Shown: in pieces, positions 2,878 to 56,615 of the stretch | How the letters are laid out: every line of letters begins with the position of its first letter | Position numbering within the stretch: the stretch's first letter is position 1 | NCBI RefSeq assembly: GCF_000024725.1 | Contig: NC_013960.1 | Location: forward strand, 1,138,261-1,202,260 | Source of the DNA: Nitrosococcus halophilus Nc 4 | Lineage (GTDB): Bacteria; Pseudomonadota; Gammaproteobacteria; Nitrosococcales; Nitrosococcaceae | Direction of reading: 5' to 3' | Length of the DNA: 64,000 nt | Made by a program: the position numbers and the translations under genes | The notes under the pieces: model-generated | Databases searched by the model: none | Told to the model about the DNA's origin: nothing | What the model saw: the letters and a program-made list of their open reading frames with translations, nothing else

Positions 2878-3324
2878 TCAGCAGGTCTCGACAGTCTTGA
2901 CGCGAACGGAAACCAACCCCTCCCGTACAAAACCCAGTTCCCGCGCGGCGCGGTAGGAAACGTCCAGAAAGCGACCCATGACAAAGGGACCCCGATCATT
3001 GACCGTAAGCACCACCGAGCGGCCGTTCTTTTGGTTTGTCACCCGTATTTTGGTGCCGAATGGGAGACTGCGATGCGCTGCCGTCAAGCCGTTCATGTCG
3101 AATACCTGTCCGTTTGCCGTGCGTCGACCATGATGAGCGCGGCCATACCAGGATGTGGTGCCCTCTTCGTCATAATCCCGTGCCTCCTCACAGCTCAGCG
3201 GCGATGCCGTAAAGCGGTAGACTGTGGAGCCAATTTGCCCGCACCCCAACGGAACAAGGGTTATTAGGATCACGACGGAGGAAGCTAGAACGTCCTTGAT
3301 CGGAGAGGCTTTTTGCCGCAGCAT
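2878..3324 (-). CDS. RlpA-like double-psi beta-barrel lipoprotein
   Basis: A lipoprotein of the RlpA family, which act as septal or peptidoglycan lytic factors in the envelope. I chose the ATG at 3324 because it gives a proper lipoprotein signal: MLRQKA, a hydrophobic stretch, then the lipobox LGC. The longer upstream reading overlaps the next gene and looks non-coding. The RlpA core follows: TSWYG near the start, then GLTAAHRSLPFGT, VTVNDRGPF and a final LDVSYRAA block, all characteristic of the domain. It lacks the C-terminal SPOR domain found in long RlpA proteins, so it belongs to the short form. The start lies 21 bases after the stop of the neighbouring glycine-zipper gene on the same strand, so the two probably form an operon. 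Confidence 0.88.
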   Translation of the reverse strand: MLRQKASPIKDVLASSVVILITLVPLGCGQIGSTVYRFTASPLSCEEARDYDEEGTTSWYGRAHHGRRTANGQVFDMNGLTAAHRSLPFGTKIRVTNQKNGRSVVLTVNDRGPFVMGRFLDVSYRAARELGFVREGLVSVRVKTVETC

Positions 3325-45923: not shown

Positions 45924-48900
45924 TTAGGCAAAAATCCAGCCAATAAGATCGCTGTAGAACAATTGTTTTTCCTTTTCAAAGTTATCTCCGACGGAGAGGG
46001 GCAGGGCGTTGATAATATGAGAGCCTGTTAATCCTCTTCGGGCCAATTGTTTTTGCCATTGTTCATACAAAGAATATCGAGAAAGCTCATCAGGCGTGAA
46101 ATAAGATTGAGCGATGCACTTGTAATGGCGCTGTTCGTGAACTTGGTTCTTTACTCTTTGAATCTTTTTTTCACTGTTAGCAAGATATTTCCAGGTATCG
46201 TCTTCCCAATCAAACCAGAGTAAATTCTGATTTACGTCTTTTCGGAAAGGGCAATATTGGCTATGTTGTTGCGTCAACACCATTTGTGAATTATACCCCT
46301 CAATAAAATACATGGCCTGTTTTGACTGCTCGGTACTCTCCAAAAGTTTCTGTAATTGACCATGCTCAAGCTGGCGCATATCGGGATACACATATTGATT
46401 TTTGATCTTTTCAGCCTGAATCAGCGGTTCTTGGAGCGTGAAGCGGGCATCAATACACTCTTGCAAGCCCTTCAGATCGAATATCTGCGCTAATGTCTCA
46501 GCGCTGTCAGAGATTGCGAAATACGCGGACTCTGGTCCTGGTTTAGTAAAGCGCATGGGTTGCTCATTTAAATCCCGCAGGGTTTGACTCATTATCCGCA
46601 TATTGGGCTGGCTGGCTTCTAAATGGCGTCGGTGCCGCCAAATGCGTCCGGCCATTTGGATCAAGGACCAGTAAGAATTGGGTTCGACAATTCCCCAGTC
46701 GTAATCGTGATCGCGTCCCACTTCAGATATGGGAGAGGTGCTGACGATAATCAATAGGTGGGTTTTTCCCTGTTGCTGACAATCTTTTAAATGAGCGCGC
46801 AGAGTCGGATGATCATGCGCTTGTCGGCCCCCTTTACGTTTCAAAAGAGTATTTAATGTCCGTTCAATATGATGGCGTATTAGCGGTAAATGCTTGGCGT
46901 GATAACAAATTAGCTTTATCTGAACTTCATTTAAATTGACGGGCGTATTAAGCCAGTATTTAGCAAATTCACGGGTGTGGGCGACATTGCTCCAGCGGAC
47001 GCAGCCGATGGAATAGCAAACGCCGGTCTCCGGATCGCGGCTAGCCCACTGTTGATGCAGTTCCCTGCAACTTTCCATCACATTTTGGTAAACCGTTTCC
47101 GGGCCTTCAATAATGGGTACGGGAATGGCGCCAAGCCGGCGCCGCACGGGTTGTTGCTGTAGCGTATCCAGCAGGGCCTGGATAAATCGACCGTGCTGCT
47201 TAGCAAAAGCGGTATTGTCGGCGACGGAGGTTAACTTAATATGAGCAGCATGATGGCTGAACCAGCCGCAGCGGATGGGGCCGGGTTCCATGCCTTGAAG
47301 TTGCCGCCAGCGGTTAAAGCCAGTTTGATAGGCGCGGTAGAAAGCGCGCGCGGTTGCAGGCGGTAGGGTCGCGGAAGATAGCAGCAGTTTTCGCCCATTG
47401 AAACCCACCACATAGGCGAGTTTTAATAACGCAGGTAAATCCTCGGTGGAAAAGCTGTCAATTTCGTCAATAATCAAATCCGATCCGGCTATGCGAAAAC
47501 CCAGGACGGCAGCCGAGGCTCGCTGGCTTTGCAGAAACGGCATTAGATGATCGATAGTGCAGACCAGAACAGGGACTTGTAGCAGGCGATTAAGCTTGGA
47601 GTTATTAGGCGCAATTAGATCTTCAGGCCAAGGAGCATCGGGATCGTAATCAAATTCGCCAGTGATGCCCTCATACAAGGAATCATCCAGGTTGCTGCTT
47701 TCGATACCTGCCTGTTCCTCCGGCGGCGGTAAACTGATTAGCTCGTTTCCTTCTTCAGAATCCGTCATTTCATGGAGGGCAATGGTTAAAGCCCCGCCGA
47801 CCATGACCGCGCATTGTTCGCCCATAGCATCAGGTGTTTTTCCAAACCCCAAGTCGCCCCGGTATTCATCGCCGGTTTGCAGGGTCAAGGTGCGCAGCCC
47901 CAGGGCGACCGTCAACCGGTAATTTTGATGGTGGTTGGCAGCGGCCAGAATGCGGACATTGCCGCGTGTTTTGCCAGAGCCAGTTTCGGCCATCACTAGG
48001 GCGAAAAATCCCTCATTGGTGTCGTCCTCTTGCCGCTGGGCTTTTAGCACCTTGCGTTCGGCTTTTTCCTGCCAGATAAAGGCTTCTTCCGTAATTGGAG
48101 CGGTCAGGGAAGGGGGAGAGGTTTCAATGGCACTGGCTTTGCGATTATGCTGGAGTTGATGCAGATGGTTGAACGCCTTTCCCGATAACTTGCCGACTTG
48201 TTCCAAATGGGCGGCCAGTGTTTGCCGTAGCTGACCCTGCCAACTGTTGGCGAAACAAACTTGTGCCTGGGTTGATTGAGTATTTACGGGAAACTCTATT
48301 TTTGCCTTACTTGAAATGCTGTGATCCGCTAAGACGAGGGCACCGCGGGCCATATAGCGGGCGGCGCTATACCAGAGCGTGCGATCCTGGGTGGGAATGG
48401 GGTGTTCCTGCAAGAGGTAATGGGCACGCCGGGCATGTTTGACAATCTCGTTGACCCATTTCGGCGACTGTGACCAAGCGGGTCGATAATCAGTGGCTAG
48501 CCGTAAGCCATTTGGCAAATCCTGTGACCTATTGAGGTAAGTTTCTTCCAGCGGCGCAAAATCATCTTCATGGCCGTCAGGTAATTTGTGATGAGATATG
48601 ACCAAAAAACAGAGCACACTTAGCAAGGGTGCCAGACCTCGGTTGTCTTCTGTCGAACTCCATTCCGGGCGCAGAGTACTTCCTTCAATGGGTATGAGTT
48701 CCCGCCAATGATCATCGGGGGTTTCCTTCCATATCCGATGCAGGGCTTCATAAATTTTTTTGGTGTCGGCAAGCGCGGCAAGCCAGTGCTCGTCTTTGAG
48801 GCTGGCCAAACCGAGAGGCGGTTTGGGGAGGCTATTATTGGCTCCCGCAACCCGGCGTCGGCGTTTTTTTGGAGCGGATGTAGCCGGTGGCGGGTTATTC

Positions 48901-49406
48901 TCGGCGGCGGGTCGTGTAATTAAAGTGATAAGCCGTAACAGCAGCAAGAGCGATATTCTTTCATGGCGCACGGGATCGCTTTGGTTGCTGTTTTTATCCC
49001 GTAGTTTATGCTGAAAGCAAGAAGCATGTTTACCCAAATCATGAAAAAGCCCGGCCAATATGCAAAGATGATTAAGTAGCCGTACGGCAGGCGCGGTCTC
49101 TTCGTTGACGCTTGGCAAGGGGGTGGCGCTATGGCTGAAGGCGAATTCACCGTTCCGGCTAAAATGCCGACGGCTGCCCACCACCCATGCCAACTCGGTT
49201 TGGTAGCGCCCCTTGACGCGATGACAGGCGACCGAGGTATGGCGACTTGCCGCTTGGGTAAGTTCTCGGCGTATGTTTCGCAAACCTTCCGCGCTGATCC
49301 GCGCCAGCCAAGTGCGCCGCCCGATTTGTACCGCATAGCGGGATAGAATGCGGCGCGATCGCTTCCAAGCGGCTTTTTCGCATTCGCTGACGAATAAGAC
49401 GATCAT
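45924..49406 (-). CDS. cas3: Cas2-Cas3 fusion helicase-nuclease (type I-F)
   Basis: An 1160-residue protein. Residues 1 to about 90 are the Cas2 part (MIVLFVSECEKAAWKRSRRILSRYAVQIGRRTWLARIS). The HD nuclease follows (FHDLGKH, His122-Asp123, with HER later), then the SF2 helicase: MAETGSGKT (Walker A), LIIDEIDSF (DExH-like motif II), LLLSSATLP (motif III), and the C-terminal QMAGRIWRHRR region (motif VI). The Cas2-Cas3 fusion is unique to type I-F. It degrades target DNA after recruitment by the Csy complex and forms the adaptation complex with Cas1. Its start overlaps the cas1 stop by 4 bases. It is oriented opposite to the csy genes, unlike the usual single operon. Confidence 0.96.
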   Translation of the reverse strand: MIVLFVSECEKAAWKRSRRILSRYAVQIGRRTWLARISAEGLRNIRRELTQAASRHTSVACHRVKGRYQTELAWVVGSRRHFSRNGEFAFSHSATPLPSVNEETAPAVRLLNHLCILAGLFHDLGKHASCFQHKLRDKNSNQSDPVRHERISLLLLLRLITLITRPAAENNPPPATSAPKKRRRRVAGANNSLPKPPLGLASLKDEHWLAALADTKKIYEALHRIWKETPDDHWRELIPIEGSTLRPEWSSTEDNRGLAPLLSVLCFLVISHHKLPDGHEDDFAPLEETYLNRSQDLPNGLRLATDYRPAWSQSPKWVNEIVKHARRAHYLLQEHPIPTQDRTLWYSAARYMARGALVLADHSISSKAKIEFPVNTQSTQAQVCFANSWQGQLRQTLAAHLEQVGKLSGKAFNHLHQLQHNRKASAIETSPPSLTAPITEEAFIWQEKAERKVLKAQRQEDDTNEGFFALVMAETGSGKTRGNVRILAAANHHQNYRLTVALGLRTLTLQTGDEYRGDLGFGKTPDAMGEQCAVMVGGALTIALHEMTDSEEGNELISLPPPEEQAGIESSNLDDSLYEGITGEFDYDPDAPWPEDLIAPNNSKLNRLLQVPVLVCTIDHLMPFLQSQRASAAVLGFRIAGSDLIIDEIDSFSTEDLPALLKLAYVVGFNGRKLLLSSATLPPATARAFYRAYQTGFNRWRQLQGMEPGPIRCGWFSHHAAHIKLTSVADNTAFAKQHGRFIQALLDTLQQQPVRRRLGAIPVPIIEGPETVYQNVMESCRELHQQWASRDPETGVCYSIGCVRWSNVAHTREFAKYWLNTPVNLNEVQIKLICYHAKHLPLIRHHIERTLNTLLKRKGGRQAHDHPTLRAHLKDCQQQGKTHLLIIVSTSPISEVGRDHDYDWGIVEPNSYWSLIQMAGRIWRHRRHLEASQPNMRIMSQTLRDLNEQPMRFTKPGPESAYFAISDSAETLAQIFDLKGLQECIDARFTLQEPLIQAEKIKNQYVYPDMRQLEHGQLQKLLESTEQSKQAMYFIEGYNSQMVLTQQHSQYCPFRKDVNQNLLWFDWEDDTWKYLANSEKKIQRVKNQVHEQRHYKCIAQSYFTPDELSRYSLYEQWQKQLARRGLTGSHIINALPLSVGDNFEKEKQLFYSDLIGWIFA

Positions 49407-50290
49407 GGATGGGTCACGTGCTTGATGGACTGGAAGAGAAATGTCATGGCGTCGCTTTCATCAAGCCAAGCAATACACGCCTGGCGCATCTCTTGATCGC
49501 TACGACCAGCCGCCGCGTGTTGAAATGCAATGGGCATTACGCACGTGTCCTTAATGATGTCGGCTACATCGAAAACTAAAGCCCCGCGCCGGGTGGTGCC
49601 GTGAATCACCGGCAATGAGTGGGGAATCCCCAAAACCCATAAAACCGTCGCCGCAACTCCGTAGGCTAGATAATTCCCATGATCGAGATAGCTATTGAAG
49701 GGGTCTTTGAAGTCCCGCTTGCCAGGATCGCGAGTAAAATTTTTAGTTTGGGTGCAGTTCGCCCACAACCCATAAAGTTTTTTTGCGAACTTGGCCTCCT
49801 GGGCCAGAATCGTTTCGTTGTCCCCGGCCAATTCAATGTTCGCCAAATAGCTCTCGGCCAATTTTTCCAGACTTGCTTTATCAGGTTTAGGCTCCGCAAG
49901 TTTGGGCCATCGCTGTATTAAAAATTCAGCCCGGTTTCTTTGAAATCTTTTAGCCACCCTAAGGCACTGGCCATCATCCTGCCATAAGCGCATCCACGTC
50001 TGGCAGTACTCGGTCGGCCGGTATTCGTTTTGGGAGGCCAGGAATAGGGGGCTTCCCCCGCCGCCCACAAATGCCAGCATCACTTGTTCGCTTGCCAGCA
50101 GACGGGCGGCCGCTTGGGTCAGGGAAGTGCCGCTACCCAGCAGAATGGCACTGGTATTCGCGGGCGGGATGGCAAAAAATTTGGTGAATGCACCTTCCTG
50201 GCGGGCATAAACCACCCGCTCGTCCTTAGCCATTACTCGGCAATGTTCCAGATAATAAAGTCCCTGGCGGTGCGAAGGCAGTATCGGCAT
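49403..50290 (-). CDS. cas1: Cas1 integrase (type I-F)
   Basis: A 295-residue Cas1. N-terminal beta domain VVYARQEGAFTKFFAIPPANTSAILLGSGTSLTQAAARLLASEQVMLAFVGG, then the helical catalytic part with LPVIHGTTRRGALVFDVADIIKDTCVMPIAF containing the metal-binding His and Asp. Spacers are inserted by Cas1 with Cas2-3. It is slightly short for subtype I-F (often about 320) but no core part seems lost. It is the first gene of the leftward cas operon; a repeat-like RNA region (50317-50417) lies in its 5' leader. Confidence 0.94.
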   Translation of the reverse strand: MPILPSHRQGLYYLEHCRVMAKDERVVYARQEGAFTKFFAIPPANTSAILLGSGTSLTQAAARLLASEQVMLAFVGGGGSPLFLASQNEYRPTEYCQTWMRLWQDDGQCLRVAKRFQRNRAEFLIQRWPKLAEPKPDKASLEKLAESYLANIELAGDNETILAQEAKFAKKLYGLWANCTQTKNFTRDPGKRDFKDPFNSYLDHGNYLAYGVAATVLWVLGIPHSLPVIHGTTRRGALVFDVADIIKDTCVMPIAFQHAAAGRSDQEMRQACIAWLDESDAMTFLFQSIKHVTHP

Positions 50291-50316: not shown

Positions 50317-50417
50317 TATCAAATCCACCTATGCGGCGGTGAAAGGCTATTCAATTAAAAAACTAAAACTTTCTAAACCACCTCTGTTTTTTCTAAACCA
50401 TTTCCACGGCGGTGAAC
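50317..50417 (-). ncRNA. CreR-like guide: two degenerate CRISPR repeats around a 25-nt pseudo-spacer
   Basis: On the minus strand, 50417 to 50370 carries a pseudo-repeat: GTTCACCGCC (5' half), a 20-nt insert in the loop, then AGGTGGTTTAGAAA (3' half). The 8-nt handle TTTAGAAA is identical to that of the real array. Without the insert, 23 of 28 positions match the real repeat, and the CCGCC/GGTGG stem closes with one G-U pair. (A contiguous window 50417-50390 matches 22 of 28.) Next is a 25-nt pseudo-spacer (50369-50345) starting GTTTTAGTTTT. Then a second pseudo-repeat (50344-50317) matches 21 of 28 with stem CCGCC-GCATA-GGTGG. The spacer resembles a site 150 bp away (see the protospacer entry). 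This repeat-spacer-repeat form in a cas promoter region is that of CreR-type self-regulating guides. Transcription and Csy4 processing are inferred. Confidence 0.75.
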
Positions 50418-50519
50418 AATTTTCTGAAGTATCATTTTTAGCCTGAAGGCGACGATAGCTTTAGAACAAAGAGTCGTAAAGAGGACTTTGATCCGCATTG
50501 ATAGTTGCTGGTTATCGAA

Positions 50520-50546
50520 ATATATTTAATTATAAAACTAAAACGG
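50520..50546 (-). promoter_or_regulatory. Protospacer with CC PAM for the CreR-like guide
   Basis: On the minus strand 5'-CC (50546-50545) is followed by GTTTTAGTTTTATAATTAAATA from 50544 downward. The pseudo-spacer begins GTTTTAGTTTTTTAATTGAATA. Positions 1-11, 13-17 and 19-22 agree; mismatches are at 12 and 18 only, then at 23-25. CC directly 5' of the protospacer is the type I-F PAM. Positions 6, 12 and 18 are the ones flipped out of pairing in Cascade/Csy guides, so these mismatches should cost little. The site covers a TATAAT box and ends 3 bases before the csy -35 box. Confidence 0.7.
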
Positions 50547-50558
50547 TATTGATATCAC
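50529..50558 (-). promoter_or_regulatory. Probable promoter for cas1-cas2-3 and the guide
   Basis: Minus strand: perfect -10 TATAAT (50534-50529). A weak -35 GTGATA (50558-50553) lies 18 bp upstream. The start would be near 50521, giving a leader of about 100 nt before the guide and then cas1. The -10 box lies inside the protospacer of the guide. Confidence 0.5.
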
Positions 50559-50577
50559 CCGCAGATGGCATTATATT
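50549..50577 (+). promoter_or_regulatory. Probable csy operon promoter
   Basis: -35 TTGATA (50549-50554), 17-bp spacer, -10 TATATT (50572-50577). Transcription would start near 50584, followed by the AAGGGG ribosome site (50596-50601) and the GTG start of csy1 at 50611. The guide's target site ends 3 bases before the -35 box. Confidence 0.65.
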
Positions 50578-50610
50578 GCGCTCTATATCCATGGCAAGGG
50601 GCGATAAACC

Positions 50611-51969
50611 GTGTTGATAGATGATTTAAACCAAGCGCTTAGCTCTAATAAAGACTCACCTGCCGAGCAGTTGAAACAGCTCAAAACCCGGTTGCTAGGA
50701 CATTGCCGGGACCCCATCAAGGTCACAGACGAGGATGTTCCCCCGCTGCTTATTGCCGCGGTTAATTTCGCTTACGGCAGCCCAACTTCCTGTGAACAGA
50801 TGCTAAACGCGGAAGGCGCCAAGGCCGCACTGGTCGCCAAAGTAATCAATAAAAATATTGGGGGAACATTTATTTGGGTCGCTTTGGTTTCCCATATGGG
50901 CACTCATCATCCTAAGTCCCGTAATGATAAAGTCAGTTCAGGACCTATTGTGGCCCGTTCCTTAACGCCGCCGCCAGCGGGTTTAGTGACCTCGGCAAAC
51001 CTCAGAACGCGTCAATTTTCCGGCTCCGGTAACGCCGTTAATACTGCGCACTATCAATGGTTGGCGTTCACCTATGAAGACTCGGCCGGAGTATTCAGCG
51101 TGATTGAGCGCGCCGCTAACCGGGATGAGCGTCTGCGCGAAACGGTGATGGCCCTAGGCATTAAAGAAAGTCAGTGGCAAGCTTTCCAGGAAGCGGCGGC
51201 GGCGCATTTAGAGACCACCAATCTTGCGCCCTTGGATCGACAATTAAAGCAAGTTTTTGTTCCAAATCCAGACCCAGAGCAGGATAGGGATTATGTCGTC
51301 ATCACGCCCCTTGCCGCCACGGCGGTCATCGGGGCGTTTGAGCAGCAGCGGACTGAATTGCGGGAACAAAACGCCACTCTGAATTTTCACCGGATAGGTG
51401 TTGGCGGGACTAAACCGCGAAATGCCGGCAGTCTGATGAATGAACTGAGCGGCAATTTGCGGCAGTTAATCATGACGATACCCCGGCTTGATTTCACCCA
51501 ACGTCAGCGGCGGCTTTGGCATTTGCAGCGAGGACGGCTGTTTCAGCCCCTGCCGAAAAAGGAAGCGCAGCGTTTTACATGGTGGCTGGAGCAGGATTGG
51601 ACCCAGCGTTACGGTAACCGGCAAGACCATCTTCGGCGTCTTGAAAAGCAGATCGCTGAATGGCTATTGCCGGAACTTGAGGAACAGGAGCAACTTTTTG
51701 CTTGGCTATCATCCGATTCCCTAGACGCCGTTCAGGAGCGTCAAAAACTTGAAGCCAAGAATTTGCCCAACTGGATTTTAAGCTTGGCGGGGATTAGTAA
51801 AAACCCGGAAACGGAGCACAGCGCTCACGAAGCACGGCAAAAAGCAGCCTATAAGGCGCTTATTTTTCATTTGAAATCACCGCCGAGCGATGAAATCGAT
51901 AAACTGATTCAGGACGCTTTGGAAAGCCTGTTGGCTAAACGCTACTTAGCGGGGGAGGTGACGGCATGA
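50611..51969 (+). CDS. csy1: Csy1 (Cas8f), large subunit of the Csy complex
   Basis: A 452-residue Cas8f. It begins at GTG with AAGGGG upstream. The Csy1 N-terminal part VTDEDVPPLLIAAVNFAYGSPTSCEQMLNAEGAKAALVAKVINKNIGG and the FHRIGVGGTKPRNAGSLMNELSGNLRQLIMTIPRL block (Gly-Gly-Thr-Lys-Pro-x-Asn) are typical of the subtype. Cas8f reads the CC PAM and caps the crRNA 5' handle with Csy2. Its stop overlaps the csy2 start (ATGA). Confidence 0.94.
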   Translation: MLIDDLNQALSSNKDSPAEQLKQLKTRLLGHCRDPIKVTDEDVPPLLIAAVNFAYGSPTSCEQMLNAEGAKAALVAKVINKNIGGTFIWVALVSHMGTHHPKSRNDKVSSGPIVARSLTPPPAGLVTSANLRTRQFSGSGNAVNTAHYQWLAFTYEDSAGVFSVIERAANRDERLRETVMALGIKESQWQAFQEAAAAHLETTNLAPLDRQLKQVFVPNPDPEQDRDYVVITPLAATAVIGAFEQQRTELREQNATLNFHRIGVGGTKPRNAGSLMNELSGNLRQLIMTIPRLDFTQRQRRLWHLQRGRLFQPLPKKEAQRFTWWLEQDWTQRYGNRQDHLRRLEKQIAEWLLPELEEQEQLFAWLSSDSLDAVQERQKLEAKNLPNWILSLAGISKNPETEHSAHEARQKAAYKALIFHLKSPPSDEIDKLIQDALESLLAKRYLAGEVTA

Positions 51970-52895
51970 GTCTGTATTATCTTCTCTTACCCACCTTAAA
52001 CGTGACCGGCTGTAACTGGGAAAGCAGCCACCTCACCCGTTCATTGCCCTTAACCGCCATAGCGGGTTTTGCCGATTACCTGGTGTCTTTTGAACTTGCC
52101 GATAACGCGGCGGATGCCGGTGCCGGTTTGGAAGGGTTTGTGGTCTGTCTCCATGACGGGCAAATCCATGAAGGCTTGAGCAAAAATCCCCTTGCCTTGT
52201 GCAAGGGCAATGGGCTCAGTCAGACCCAGGACGATTTGCTTAACCCGCCTCTCATTCCAGAGGTCAAGGGTTCCATGTCCCTTAGCTTAGTGGTGGCCTT
52301 GGAGCTGGAAAACAAATCCGCCTTGGATGAGTGGCTGAAAACCCGCTCAACGGCATTTTTACAGACCCGCCGTTTAGCAGGGGGGGATATTATTGGAATA
52401 GGTCAGCCAAAAATTTACATCAAAAGATCCGATCTAGCCAGAGAAATGGGGCGGTTGCCGCCTGGCTGGTTTATTAGTAATGGCGCTGATCTTATTGCCC
52501 ATGAGCCTGATCACTTTGCTGCGCTAATCAATGCCGTGGCTTGGTTTCCGGCGGAGGATAAAGAATCACAAAATATGTCTGCTCAATCTTCCCCATTCAG
52601 GCGGCGCCAGCATCCTGGTCATTGGCTCTATGCCACCTGCGTTGGTTATCAGCTCTTGGAATCGCCCCAGCCGCGCCGTAACCGCAGCCATGCTTCTTCA
52701 GATGCCGATTCTTCCACGAATCATGCTTACGCCGAACCTGTTCACAGCCTGGCCAAGCTGCTTTGGACGCGAGGGGTGCTACGGCTCCAGAATGATTCCA
52801 CGGTCGACAACTGGCTCACGAAGAATAAGTTACTGTGGCGCTGGGATACCAACGCTCCTAGCCGCACGGTTTATCTTTCAACTAAAGCGCTTTAA
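51966..52895 (+). CDS. csy2: Csy2 (Cas5f)
   Basis: A 309-residue Cas5f. Early part YYLLLPTLNVTGCNWESSHLTRSLPLTAIAGFADYLVS contains the family's AITGF-like motif, and the C-terminal HPGHWLYATCVGYQLLE plus HAYAEPVHSLAKLLWTRGV is characteristic. It pairs with Csy1 at the crRNA 5' handle. It starts within the csy1 stop and is followed by csy3 after 22 bases. Confidence 0.93.
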   Translation: MSLYYLLLPTLNVTGCNWESSHLTRSLPLTAIAGFADYLVSFELADNAADAGAGLEGFVVCLHDGQIHEGLSKNPLALCKGNGLSQTQDDLLNPPLIPEVKGSMSLSLVVALELENKSALDEWLKTRSTAFLQTRRLAGGDIIGIGQPKIYIKRSDLAREMGRLPPGWFISNGADLIAHEPDHFAALINAVAWFPAEDKESQNMSAQSSPFRRRQHPGHWLYATCVGYQLLESPQPRRNRSHASSDADSSTNHAYAEPVHSLAKLLWTRGVLRLQNDSTVDNWLTKNKLLWRWDTNAPSRTVYLSTKAL

Positions 52896-52917
52896 ACACT
52901 ATTAAGGAGTTTCCATA

Positions 52918-53976
52918 ATGGCGTCCGTTCAGATTCCCCCCTTGCTCAACTATACCCGCAGCATCATTCCCAGCGAAGGCACCTTCTGGGTATCCAATGA
53001 GGCTAACCGGCCATTGCTTATCCAGGATAAAACCGTATTAGGTACCATCGCCAATTACAGCTCGGTCTACAAAAAAGATAAGCAGCGCGATGAAGAGGCC
53101 ATTAATAAGGAAATGATGGCGGGAGCTAACAATATTCAGCGAGTCGATAGCTGCCATCTGCCTGCCGATGCGGATACTTTTGAATTTCGTTTTACGCTTA
53201 AGTTTTTAGATAATGCCAAGGCTCCTGAAGCCTGCGACGATCCCGCGTTTCGGGAAGACTTAGAAGACATAGCGCAAGCGTATGCTGAAAAAGGCGGTTT
53301 TACCATACTGGCCGAGCGTTATCTGGCTAATCTCCTAAATGGACGGTTTTTATGGCGCAATCGCTACGGCACCCAGCGTCAAATCACCCTGCGCGCGCCC
53401 TATAACAATCTCGAAGCAACCTTCGAAGTTACTGACCATCCGGAACCCGCCCTGCCTCAAGAGCGGATGGATAAGTTCAAGCCTTGGATTGATCATATTG
53501 CCGGTGCGCTAAGCGGTGAAGTTCCGTTTTTTCTTATAGAAGTCAGCGCTAAAGTAACTATCGGCCTTGGGCAAGAAGTGTATCCCAGCCAGGAGTTTGT
53601 CGATAGTGGGTCGCGGGGACAAGGTAAGAAATCTAAGACTCTCTTTTCTGTGCAAGTCGCTGATCAACAGGTGGCCGCTATGCATAGCCAAAAAATCGGT
53701 AATGCCATTCGTACCATTGATAATTGGTATCCGGACGCCAGCGCTGATCGTCCGCTCGCGGTTGATCCCTTTACCGTCGATAAGCGCCAGGCTCGTACTG
53801 TGCGGTTGCCAGATCGTGAAAAATCGGACTTCTATAGTCTTTTGAAAAATTTGTTCGATCTGAAAGAGGGGGTTGAGCGTGCGCTGGACGCCAAAGCCAT
53901 ACCAGGGCATGCTCATTATTTTATGGCGGTATTGATACGCGGGGGGGTGTTTAGCGGAGAGAAGAAAACTAAGTAG
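52918..53976 (+). CDS. csy3: Csy3 (Cas7f), backbone subunit
   Basis: A 352-residue Cas7f. N-terminal PPLLNYTRSIIPSEGTFWVSN, GFTILAERYLANLLNGRFLWRNRYG, and the closing KAIPGHAHYFMAVLIRGGVFSGEKK are diagnostic for Csy3. Six copies line the crRNA and flip out every sixth base. A good ribosome site (aaggag) precedes the ATG. Confidence 0.95.
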   Translation: MASVQIPPLLNYTRSIIPSEGTFWVSNEANRPLLIQDKTVLGTIANYSSVYKKDKQRDEEAINKEMMAGANNIQRVDSCHLPADADTFEFRFTLKFLDNAKAPEACDDPAFREDLEDIAQAYAEKGGFTILAERYLANLLNGRFLWRNRYGTQRQITLRAPYNNLEATFEVTDHPEPALPQERMDKFKPWIDHIAGALSGEVPFFLIEVSAKVTIGLGQEVYPSQEFVDSGSRGQGKKSKTLFSVQVADQQVAAMHSQKIGNAIRTIDNWYPDASADRPLAVDPFTVDKRQARTVRLPDREKSDFYSLLKNLFDLKEGVERALDAKAIPGHAHYFMAVLIRGGVFSGEKKTK

Positions 53977-53990
53977 GGGAAATATTACCT

Positions 53991-54590
53991 ATGTTTTCAG
54001 ATTATTTTGAAATCCAGTCAATAGGGCTACCTGAAGACACCCATTTTATTTTAAGTAAGCTTTTCACTCGCATACATGGCGTGTTGAAATCCGAGTCGTT
54101 AAATATCGGCCTTGGATTTCCTGAGCTTAGCCCACGTTCCCCTGGGAGTATTGTGCGTTGTTTTGGAACGCTCCAGGAGCTGGATCAGTTGCGTTGCAAC
54201 AGCGGTATTACCCATCTTGAAGGGCGCGGGATGATTTCAATCAGGCCCATAATGGCCGTGCCTTCTAATGCAACAGCAATCGCTTATCGGCGTGATCGTA
54301 ATGCAGAGAAGCATCTAGCAGGGTTTAGACAACGGCAAATGCGCCGCCGAATCCGGCGCGCCGACTGCACCCAAAAGCAGCTAGGAATGGATTTCAAGTC
54401 GGAGGATAGGCTACAGGATAACGAGGAGACGAAGCGGCCACCTTATTTATTGTTAGAACGTGATGGTCGGCGGTTACCTATTCATATCAGCACTGTAAAT
54501 CTTCAGATTGATACTGATATTTGCCAATTTAGCAGCTACGGGTTGGCTAGAAAAGTTGAGAGTAAGTACTCAGCCGTACCCATGTTCTGA
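53991..54590 (+). CDS. csy4: Csy4 (Cas6f), crRNA endoribonuclease
   Basis: A 199-residue Cas6f. The catalytic histidine is His29 (FTRIHGVL), the same position as in the well-studied Pseudomonas enzyme. An arginine-rich helix (FRQRQMRRRIRR, about 112-123) would bind the repeat stem, and the C-terminal ICQFSSYGLARK holds the conserved YGL motif. It cuts at the base of the CCGCC-GCGTA-GGCGG hairpin, leaving an 8-nt TTTAGAAA handle, and stays bound. Last gene of the csy operon, next to the array leader. Confidence 0.94.
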   Translation: MFSDYFEIQSIGLPEDTHFILSKLFTRIHGVLKSESLNIGLGFPELSPRSPGSIVRCFGTLQELDQLRCNSGITHLEGRGMISIRPIMAVPSNATAIAYRRDRNAEKHLAGFRQRQMRRRIRRADCTQKQLGMDFKSEDRLQDNEETKRPPYLLLERDGRRLPIHISTVNLQIDTDICQFSSYGLARKVESKYSAVPMF

Positions 54591-54723: not shown

Positions 54724-56615
54724 GTTCGCCGCCGCGTAGGCGGTTTAGAAATCCAGGCTTTCCATAAATCTCTTAACAGCCGTGTTCGCCGCCGCGTAGG
54801 CGGTTTAGAAAATACTTACAAACTTTGAATGTACATCTCCTAATGTTCGCCGCCGCGTAGGCGGTTTAGAAAATGCTGGAAAAGGAAGATCCACGTACCC
54901 CGCAAGTTCGCCGCCGCGTAGGCGGTTTAGAAAATCGTCGTTGCGGTAGAGGAGAAACTGATGCCGTTCGCCGCCGCGTAGGCGGTTTAGAAATACAAAA
55001 AATGATAGGTAGGTGGAGTCTTGCTGTTCGCCGCCGCGTAGGCGGTTTAGAAAATCCTCCTGGGTTTCGTAGCGGCCATGCTTACGTTCGCCGCCGCGTA
55101 GGCGGTTTAGAAAAAAAGTTTAAGCATCCCCTCAGACATTTTCCTGTTCGCCGCCGCGTAGGCGGTTTAGAAAACTCGGGTGGAAAAGTGCTTCCCGGTA
55201 ATTCCGTTCGCCGCCGCGTAGGCGGTTTAGAAAACAAAGACCGGGCGTTATGGCTGACCAAGCGAGTTCGCCGCCGCGTAGGCGGTTTAGAAAAAAGATC
55301 TATTCATAGACACAGATCATAAGTTGTTCGCCGCCGCGTAGGCGGTTTAGAAAACCCGACCCTCGCCGCTTCATCGTATGCGGTCGTTCGCCGCCGCGTA
55401 GGCGGTTTAGAAACTATGAATAACACACCACTGCGATTCAATTCCGTTCGCCGCCGCGTAGGCGGTTTAGAAATGATGCGGTCCGAAGGAGGGCAGTGCC
55501 TAGGGGTTCGCCGCCGCGTAGGCGGTTTAGAAAACGTGTTTAATAACCCCGTAGTTCGTAGTGGGGTTCGCCGCCGCGTAGGCGGTTTAGAAAACCCGAC
55601 CCTCGCCGCTTCATCGTATGCGGTCGTTCGCCGCCGCGTAGGCGGTTTAGAAACTATGAATAACACACCACTGCGATTCAATTCCGTTCGCCGCCGCGTA
55701 GGCGGTTTAGAAATATCGGATAGGACACGGGAGTCCTACTAACTAGTTCGCCGCCGCGTAGGCGGTTTAGAAATGAAGATATTTATGGGGATGAGATAGT
55801 TTAAGGTTCGCCGCCGCGTAGGCGGTTTAGAAAACCCGACCCTCGCCGCTTCATCGTATGCGGTCGTTCGCCGCCGCGTAGGCGGTTTAGAAACTATGAA
55901 TAACACACCACTGCGATTCAATTCCGTTCGCCGCCGCGTAGGCGGTTTAGAAACGAAATTGCGGAAGTCAGCGTGATAGCGTTAAGTTCGCCGCCGCGTA
56001 GGCGGTTTAGAAATCCTGCCACGGCAATAAGTCCCATCTTGGCTTGTTCGCCGCCGCGTAGGCGGTTTAGAAATTCCACAAATCTCTAAGTAACCGCTTC
56101 TCCGTGTTCGCCGCCGCGTAGGCGGTTTAGAAAATACCGAACACGACGATCTCAGGCCGGATGGAGTTCGCCGCCGCGTAGGCGGTTTAGAAAACAGGGG
56201 TCTAACCCTATAAGAATCAATATATAGTTCGCCGCCGCGTAGGCGGTTTAGAAATTTAGCGATGAAAATAGGTGTTCCGGTGCCGCGTTCGCCGCCGCGT
56301 AGGCGGTTTAGAAATTGCGTATATTTGGGAGCAAGAGCTGTCTAATGTTCGCCGCCGCGTAGGCGGTTTAGAAATAAAAGATTGCCAATAACTATTCCAT
56401 CTCTAGGTTCGCCGCCGCGTAGGCGGTTTAGAAACTCCTGAATTCATTATTTCTAATTTTTCAGATCGTTCGCCGCCGCGTAGGCGGTTTAGAAAAGGGG
56501 TATCAAAAGATATCTATTTGAATTTCCGTTCGCCGCCGCGTAGGCGGTTTAGAAATGACAGCGGATTGACGCATTTATCCCATGCAGGTTCGCCGCCGCG
56601 TAGGCGGTTTAGAAA
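54724..56615 (+). CRISPR. Type I-F CRISPR array, 32 repeats and 31 spacers
   Basis: A 28-bp repeat beginning GTTCGCCGCCGCGTAGGCGG and ending TTTAGAAA occurs 32 times, all copies identical as far as I can read, including the last (56588-56615). Spacers are 32 bp, a few 33. The hairpin CCGCC-GCGTA-GGCGG followed by an 8-nt handle is the I-F form. Spacers 11, 15 and 19 are identical, as are 12, 16 and 20, so one spacer pair occurs at 55354, 55594 and 55834 with exactly 240-bp spacing and different spacers in between. The perfect last repeat and lack of decay suggest an active or recently active array. Confidence 0.98.

Follow-up and report, generated by a model that had tools for sequence, protein, structure and literature searches.

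The window analyzed here, a stretch of 64,000 nucleotides from Nitrosococcus halophilus Nc 4, contains a complete type I-F CRISPR-Cas system in a divergent layout. On the minus strand, cas3f (cas2-3; 45924-49406) and cas1f (49403-50290) form a leftward unit (45924-50290), while csy1 (cas8f; 50611-51969), csy2 (cas5f; 51966-52895), csy3 (cas7f; 52918-53976) and csy4 (cas6f; 53991-54590) are transcribed rightward on the plus strand (50611-54590), followed by the array. All assignments were made with PADLOC, that of csy2 also with Pfam; the product of csy4 is the expected processor of the guide RNA discussed below. Csy1 is a divergent member, with a Cas8f match of 2e-304 in PADLOC, a weak one in Pfam (Cas_Csy1) and none in NCBIfam. 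The array (plus strand, 54724 to approximately 56616) comprises 32 copies of a 28-nt repeat (GTTCGCCGCCGCGTAGGCGGTTTAGAAA) and spacers of mostly 32 nt. One block of spacers is present in triplicate at 55326-55956 (99% alike), which suggests recombination within the array. The gap between cas1 and csy1 measures 320 nt and harbors a mini-CRISPR.

By direct sequence reading and repeat finding, a first pseudo-repeat (psiR1), a 25-nt guide and a second pseudo-repeat (psiR2) were identified in series on the minus strand of 50317-50417. PsiR1 (50370-50417) is 48 nt long, its stem being formed by CCGCC (50408-50412) and GGTGG (50378-50382). The loop has 25 nt, compared to 5 nt in the array repeat, and carries a 20-nt insert. 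Depending on where this insert is cut out, psiR1 matches the array repeat at 23 or 24 of 28 positions, and its 8-nt handle TTTAGAAA (50370-50377) is an exact copy of the array-repeat handle. The pseudo-spacer, i.e. the guide, occupies 50345-50369 (GTTTTAGTTTTTTAATTGAATAGCC). PsiR2 (50317-50344) matches at 21 of 28 positions and has a CCGCC/GGTGG stem, the loop GCATA and a degenerate handle, ATTTGATA. Folding revealed that both pseudo-repeats form the CCGCC/GGUGG stem of a Cas6f-type hairpin. Thus, a first-pass annotation of the locus, which had described two degenerate minus-strand repeats around a 25-nt pseudo-spacer, an exact handle and 23 matches in psiR1, 21 matches in psiR2 and a possible stem in both, held in all these points. 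A whole-genome search for a CCGCC/GGYGG hairpin followed by TTTAGAAA detected, outside of the array, psiR1 as the only location; psiR2 was also recovered with a looser pattern. A further TTTAGAAA motif inside psiR1 was considered as the true handle but rejected, as it lacks a preceding stem and has changed in both related species possessing the element. The genome also contains, outside of the array, ten identical copies of a dispersed hairpin, CCGCCAGCCCGGCGGTTTTGATA (e.g. G000:C2:263693-263715). It is similar to the psiR2 hairpin and tail and probably represents a repeat family of another kind.

The guide matches a protospacer-like site on the minus strand at 50523-50544 in 20 of 22 positions, and this target is flanked by a CC PAM (50545-50546; GG on the plus strand). 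The mismatches are confined to positions 12 and 18. All of this had been claimed in the first-pass annotation and held. That the match is far beyond chance was shown in several ways. When the genome of 4,145,260 bases was searched for CC followed by the 22 positions with up to three mismatches, only the guide itself and 50523-50544 were found, and a control search with the reversed pattern gave no match. None of 1000 shuffled guides equaled the real one (p < 0.001). On the same 1.5 kb, the 28 distinct array spacers reached 9 to 12 of 17 matches, the guide 17 of 17. The concern raised earlier, that the similarity might merely be due to the A-T richness of the matched stretch, is answered by the uniqueness within the genome, the shuffled guides and the low scores of the array spacers. 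It is further removed by elements of other loci that are less A-T-rich, an example being AATGAGGTTTGGCCAAGAGG in L010.

The position of the target relative to the promoters of the gap is informative. The csy1 promoter (50549-50577, plus strand) consists of a -35 box TTGATA (50549-50554), a spacing of 17 nt and a -10 box TATATT (50572-50577). In the window genome and in both congeners with the system (G001, G003), the -35 box starts 2 nt past the PAM, and the position and spacing of the promoter are conserved as well. The earlier statement that the target abuts the csy -35 box is thus correct. Between the target and the csy1 start lie about 64 to 66 nt, which are taken up by the csy1 promoter and leader. 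This geometry makes repression of csy1-csy4 the preferred interpretation and very likely, even though it is inferred from the sequence without expression data.

For the leftward direction, three candidate promoters were considered. Promoter A (50570-50597, minus strand; TTGCCA-16-TATAAT) has a counterpart in G001 (TTGCCT-17-TATAGT), but its conservation is not independent evidence since it overlaps with the csy1 promoter and leader. If it were used, a complex bound to the target would sit downstream as a roadblock. Promoter B (50452-50480, minus strand; TTTACG-17-TATCGT) lies between target and guide and is similar in both congeners; it was read off the congener alignment and scores below the threshold of the promoter scan. 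Promoter C (50529-50558, minus strand; GTGATA-18-TATAAT) overlaps the target, is similar in G001 and absent in G003. Hence, the leftward TATAAT over the target, noticed in the first-pass annotation, was only partly confirmed. Among the three candidates, compared between the window genome, G001 and G003, no leftward promoter is clearly conserved on independent grounds. The proposal that both operons are controlled at once held in part: the geometry provides good support in the case of csy1-csy4, but control of cas1-cas3 is unproven. Whether cas1-cas3 and the guide transcript are repressed remains undecided because it depends on the leftward promoter used.

Three other species of the genus were compared, two with a type I-F system (G001 and G003) and one without it (G002). 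The latter, which lacks a type I-F csy3, also lacks the element. G001 and G003 have retained both pseudo-repeats with an identical repeat spacing of 73 nt, the 25-nt guide and the 48-nt organization of psiR1, in which the long loop is kept and the stem is a perfect CCGCC/GGCGG. The 105-nt block between guide and target is conserved and the CC PAM is invariant in the three species that possess the element. In G001, a C-to-T substitution at guide position 1 (plus-strand letters) is mirrored in the target of this species, as is a T-to-A substitution at position 14 in G003. The 22-nt portion of the congener guides that aligns with the target thus contains two substitutions, and both (2/2) recur in the target of the same species. 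Additional changes affect only the target, at position 21 in G001 and at positions 6 and 15 in G003; of these, the mismatch at 15 is not at a flipped-out position and speaks against a guide function. A check against related genomes, suggested along with the first-pass annotation, has thus been carried out, with the result that repeats and match both persist and co-vary. A genome of the same family (G004) contains a type I-F system but no mini-CRISPR in its 155-nt gap (L088:5215-5369), indicating that the element is dispensable. The best CC-flanked self-match of G004 (13/15) is itself a palindrome, lies within the range of shuffled sequences and was rejected as an element. In G003, cas3 is split into two frames (L086:1010-4514; break near 3065), by either a real frameshift or a sequencing error, and the CreR-like element is intact.

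To what extent such elements occur elsewhere was analyzed by a scan of type I-F loci for a hairpin plus handle, which was blind to any target. After exclusion of two hairpin hits consisting of A+T only (L054, L085) and of another at the end of a contig, 17 elements with a measurable guide remained, and for all 17 a target with an adjoining CC was present no more than about 180 nt away. A relaxed scan of 113 type I-F loci revealed about 30 elements with unrelated guides, each with a nearby CC-flanked target, while reversed guides never exceeded 12/17. Matches in L019 (at 6361) and L047, which have atypical handles and are likely due to chance, were set aside. Other divergent cas1/csy1 systems (L006, L007, L009) harbor a mini-CRISPR in the same gap but with a different guide. 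The guide of L006, a gammaproteobacterial MAG, shows 17 consecutive matches and a mismatch at 18, that of L009 (Endozoicomonas) mismatches at 6, 12 and 18 and then at 19-20. In unrelated type I-F lineages, another guide sequence has taken over, but the PAM, the match of the seed and the placement at a promoter have been retained. In L008, no element was detected by the hairpin scan; an ORF for a WYL-domain regulator lies beside cas1 (L008:5118-5990), and it is possible that this protein stands in for the guide element of the relatives. Among 369 genomes drawn from across the class, none could be clearly added to the divergent cas1/csy1 clade (the best other Cas1 reached 52%), and in the plasmid collection no Cas1 exceeded 48%.

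The distances between target and csy1 fall mainly into two groups of about 40-83 nt and 190-270 nt; outside of the window genus, they are approximate because the earliest start codon in the open reading frame was assumed to be the beginning of csy1. About twelve elements, including the window element, belong to the first group. In the own genus, L006, L010, L038 and L068, the PAM is located 0-3 nt before a -35 hexamer (-35-like in the L loci) and the gap to csy1 amounts to 53-83 nt. From this geometry it can be inferred that the 40-83 nt group probably targets the csy1 promoter itself and is CreR-like. The targets of the second group, located in the cas3-csy1 gap (L022, L027, L030, L034, L039, L040, L041, L053, L062, L079, L083), are CreTA-like and might, by analogy to the Acinetobacter type I-F CreTA (PMC10097628), leave room for a creT gene; in three of them (L027, L034, L041), the target is followed by a motif resembling a Shine-Dalgarno sequence and by a short frame. 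In Thiothrix caldifontis (L007:5189-5945), the mini-CRISPR is flanked by ORFs for an RHH-domain protein and a ParE toxin (PF05016, 2.4e-15), and its guide matches a site with an adjoining CC that lies 13 nt ahead of the start of ParE; by analogy, this may be a CrePA-like module in a type I-F locus. Gilliamella loci (L057:10411-10993, L080:10360-10935, L085:10393-10984) carry the mini-CRISPR on the csy strand, and the targets precede an ORF of 106-111 aa without Pfam family between cas3 and csy1, a possible candidate for a CRISPR-repressed toxin.

Csy and Cascade complexes leave each sixth base of the guide unread, as it is flipped out. The mismatches of the elements follow this period. In 14 non-redundant elements, whose targets were chosen on all 20 positions alike, ignoring the period, mismatches occurred in 27 of 42 cells at positions 6, 12 and 18 compared to 13 of 210 cells at the other positions within 1-17 (Fisher test, p 3e-16). 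The set of about 30 elements gave 21, 19 and 23 mismatches at positions 6, 12 and 18 (63-77%) and none at positions 1-5, 7 and 8, but as it was partly selected by matching at the remaining positions, the figure from the 14 elements is the unbiased one. The 6-nt period implies that the sequences are kept under selection as Csy guides. In the 30 elements, matching fades past about position 18-20 and is at background level beyond about 20. It is conceivable that this fading match reflects binding without cutting, an inference for which there are no cleavage data.

Taken together, the element is very likely a type I-F CreR (cas-regulating RNA) repressing its own csy operon, as proposed in the first-pass annotation. 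Its anatomy, the PAM, the match, the promoter geometry, conservation, co-variation and the periodic mismatch pattern are shown. It meets the structural criteria of a CreR, being an ectopic one-spacer mini-CRISPR with degenerate repeats beside a complete cas locus. Its guide is partly complementary to the own cas promoter with the PAM of the subtype (20/22, CC, 2 nt from the -35 box), and the match is limited, as pairing stops at position 22 of the 25-nt guide and the PAM-distal end is unpaired. As regards Cas6-type processing, folding showed that the stem and handle are retained. On the other hand, transcription, processing by Csy4, binding, effector-dependent repression, the absence of cutting and the response to crRNA or Acr load are inferred from sequence alone. 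PsiR1, guide and psiR2 would be transcribed together in the leftward direction within the cas1/csy1 gap, and cleavage by Csy4 after each hairpin would release a short crRNA-like RNA composed of the handle (8 nt), the guide (25 nt) and a 3′ hairpin, with the expected 5′ end UUUAGAAAGUUUUAG. Loaded with this guide, the Csy complex would occupy the target together with its PAM (50523-50546), right in front of the -35 box of csy1, and block RNA polymerase at the csy1-csy4 promoter. Since pairing ends near position 20-22, the R-loop would be incomplete and Cas3 would not be called to cut the chromosome. Such a feedback loop would keep the effector level proportional to the guide supply, and repression would relax if crRNAs or anti-CRISPRs occupied the complex. 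A weak point of this model is cleavage of psiR1 with its 25-nt loop by Csy4, for which no data exist; the uncertain promoter of the guide transcript also counts against it.

Other explanations were considered. According to the CreTA/CrePA model, a small toxin gene, located in the target-csy1 gap or the 105-nt block between guide and target, is held down by the guide, which makes the cell dependent on the Csy complex. In favor of this model, a type I-F CreTA of the same anatomy is known (PMC10097628), several type I-F relatives have a gap of 190-270 nt or a small ORF before csy1, and the element of L007 may control a ParE toxin. By contrast, only 64-66 nt separate the window target from csy1, and they are accounted for by the promoter and leader of the latter. 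No ORF reaching 60 codons occurs in this interval, and short reading frames flanking the target on both sides are, as read from the alignment, disrupted in the congeners. The defining trait of CreTA and CrePA, a target in the promoter of an independent gene for a toxin or toxic RNA, is therefore not given, and we regard this model as very improbable.

Very little can be said for a protein operator, i.e. the two 22-nt A+T-rich copies acting as a direct-repeat operator or as an UP element with a chance copy. Although A+T-rich sequences by a promoter are the ordinary setting of an operator, CC is present at only one copy, and the handle and flanking hairpins only at the other. Moreover, other lineages have the same arrangement with unrelated sequences, and the 6-nt mismatch period is not explained by this reading. 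Nor does the period fit a decayed, non-functional array unit, whose target match would be the relic of an old self-targeting spacer. The degenerate repeats are in line with decay, but functional ectopic repeats are usually degenerate as well (PMC9458426), the unit has been kept in three species with compensatory guide and target changes, and L006, L007 and L009 have an element at the same place with other guides. Decay is thus also highly unlikely.

CreR RNAs are known from type I-B, I-E and V-A systems (Liu et al. 2023, Cell Host Microbe, doi 10.1016/j.chom.2023.08.005, via the reviews PMC12737573 and PMC13131331). What they have in common with the type I-F CreR proposed here is a mini-CRISPR beside cas genes, limited complementarity to a cas promoter and, as expected for the window element, autorepression. 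What separates the latter from them is the type I-F context with a CC PAM in a divergent cas1/csy1 gap, the 25-nt guide, the 20-nt loop insert of psiR1 and the lack of experimental data. An Acinetobacter type I-F CreTA built in the same way exerts csy4-dependent repression on a promoter (PMC10097628). It shares with the window element the type I-F effector, the psiR1-psiS-psiR2 order on the strand opposite to csy1 and a CC-flanked target adjoining a promoter; its guide is processed by Csy4, which is expected here as well. However, the promoter targeted there serves a toxic small RNA (creT) encoded between cas3 and csy1, while the window target lies at the csy1 promoter and leaves no room for creT. 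CrePA (Shu et al. 2025, doi 10.1038/s41589-024-01693-3, via reviews) is similar in that a guide-repressed gene is linked to the cas locus, but it represses a protein toxin, which is resembled by the Thiothrix element (L007) and not by that of the window. Racr and solitary repeat units (PMC10651486) are likewise ectopic type I-F repeats outside of an array. Contrary to the window element, they are phage-borne inhibitors without a promoter-matching guide; they are defined by one repeat, without a guide, within a viral or prophage genome, whereas two repeats and a matched guide in a host cas locus are present here. Thus, CreR (I-B, I-E, V-A) and type I-F CreTA were already known, whereas a type I-F CreR was not found in the literature searched, which covered Liu et al. 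2023 only through reviews, and appears to be new within these limits.

A bolder joint reading is that ectopic guides are general in type I-F loci (about 30/113), one ancestral mini-CRISPR having been retargeted for cas autorepression, RNA-toxin or protein-toxin control, that mismatches record the bases read by Csy, and that in the divergent cas1/csy1 clade one complex throttles the effector operon, cas1-cas3 and its own guide. In this full form, we lean slightly against it. The type I-F CreR itself would extend RNA-guided autorepression to a subtype whose effector structure is well studied and for which many anti-CRISPR proteins are known, so that the balance of effector supply with guide supply and Acr attack would be directly testable. 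The bimodal distance between target and csy1 may serve as a simple rule to separate CreR from CreTA, and the mismatch pattern across many elements would provide an evolutionary read-out of how Csy complexes read their guides.
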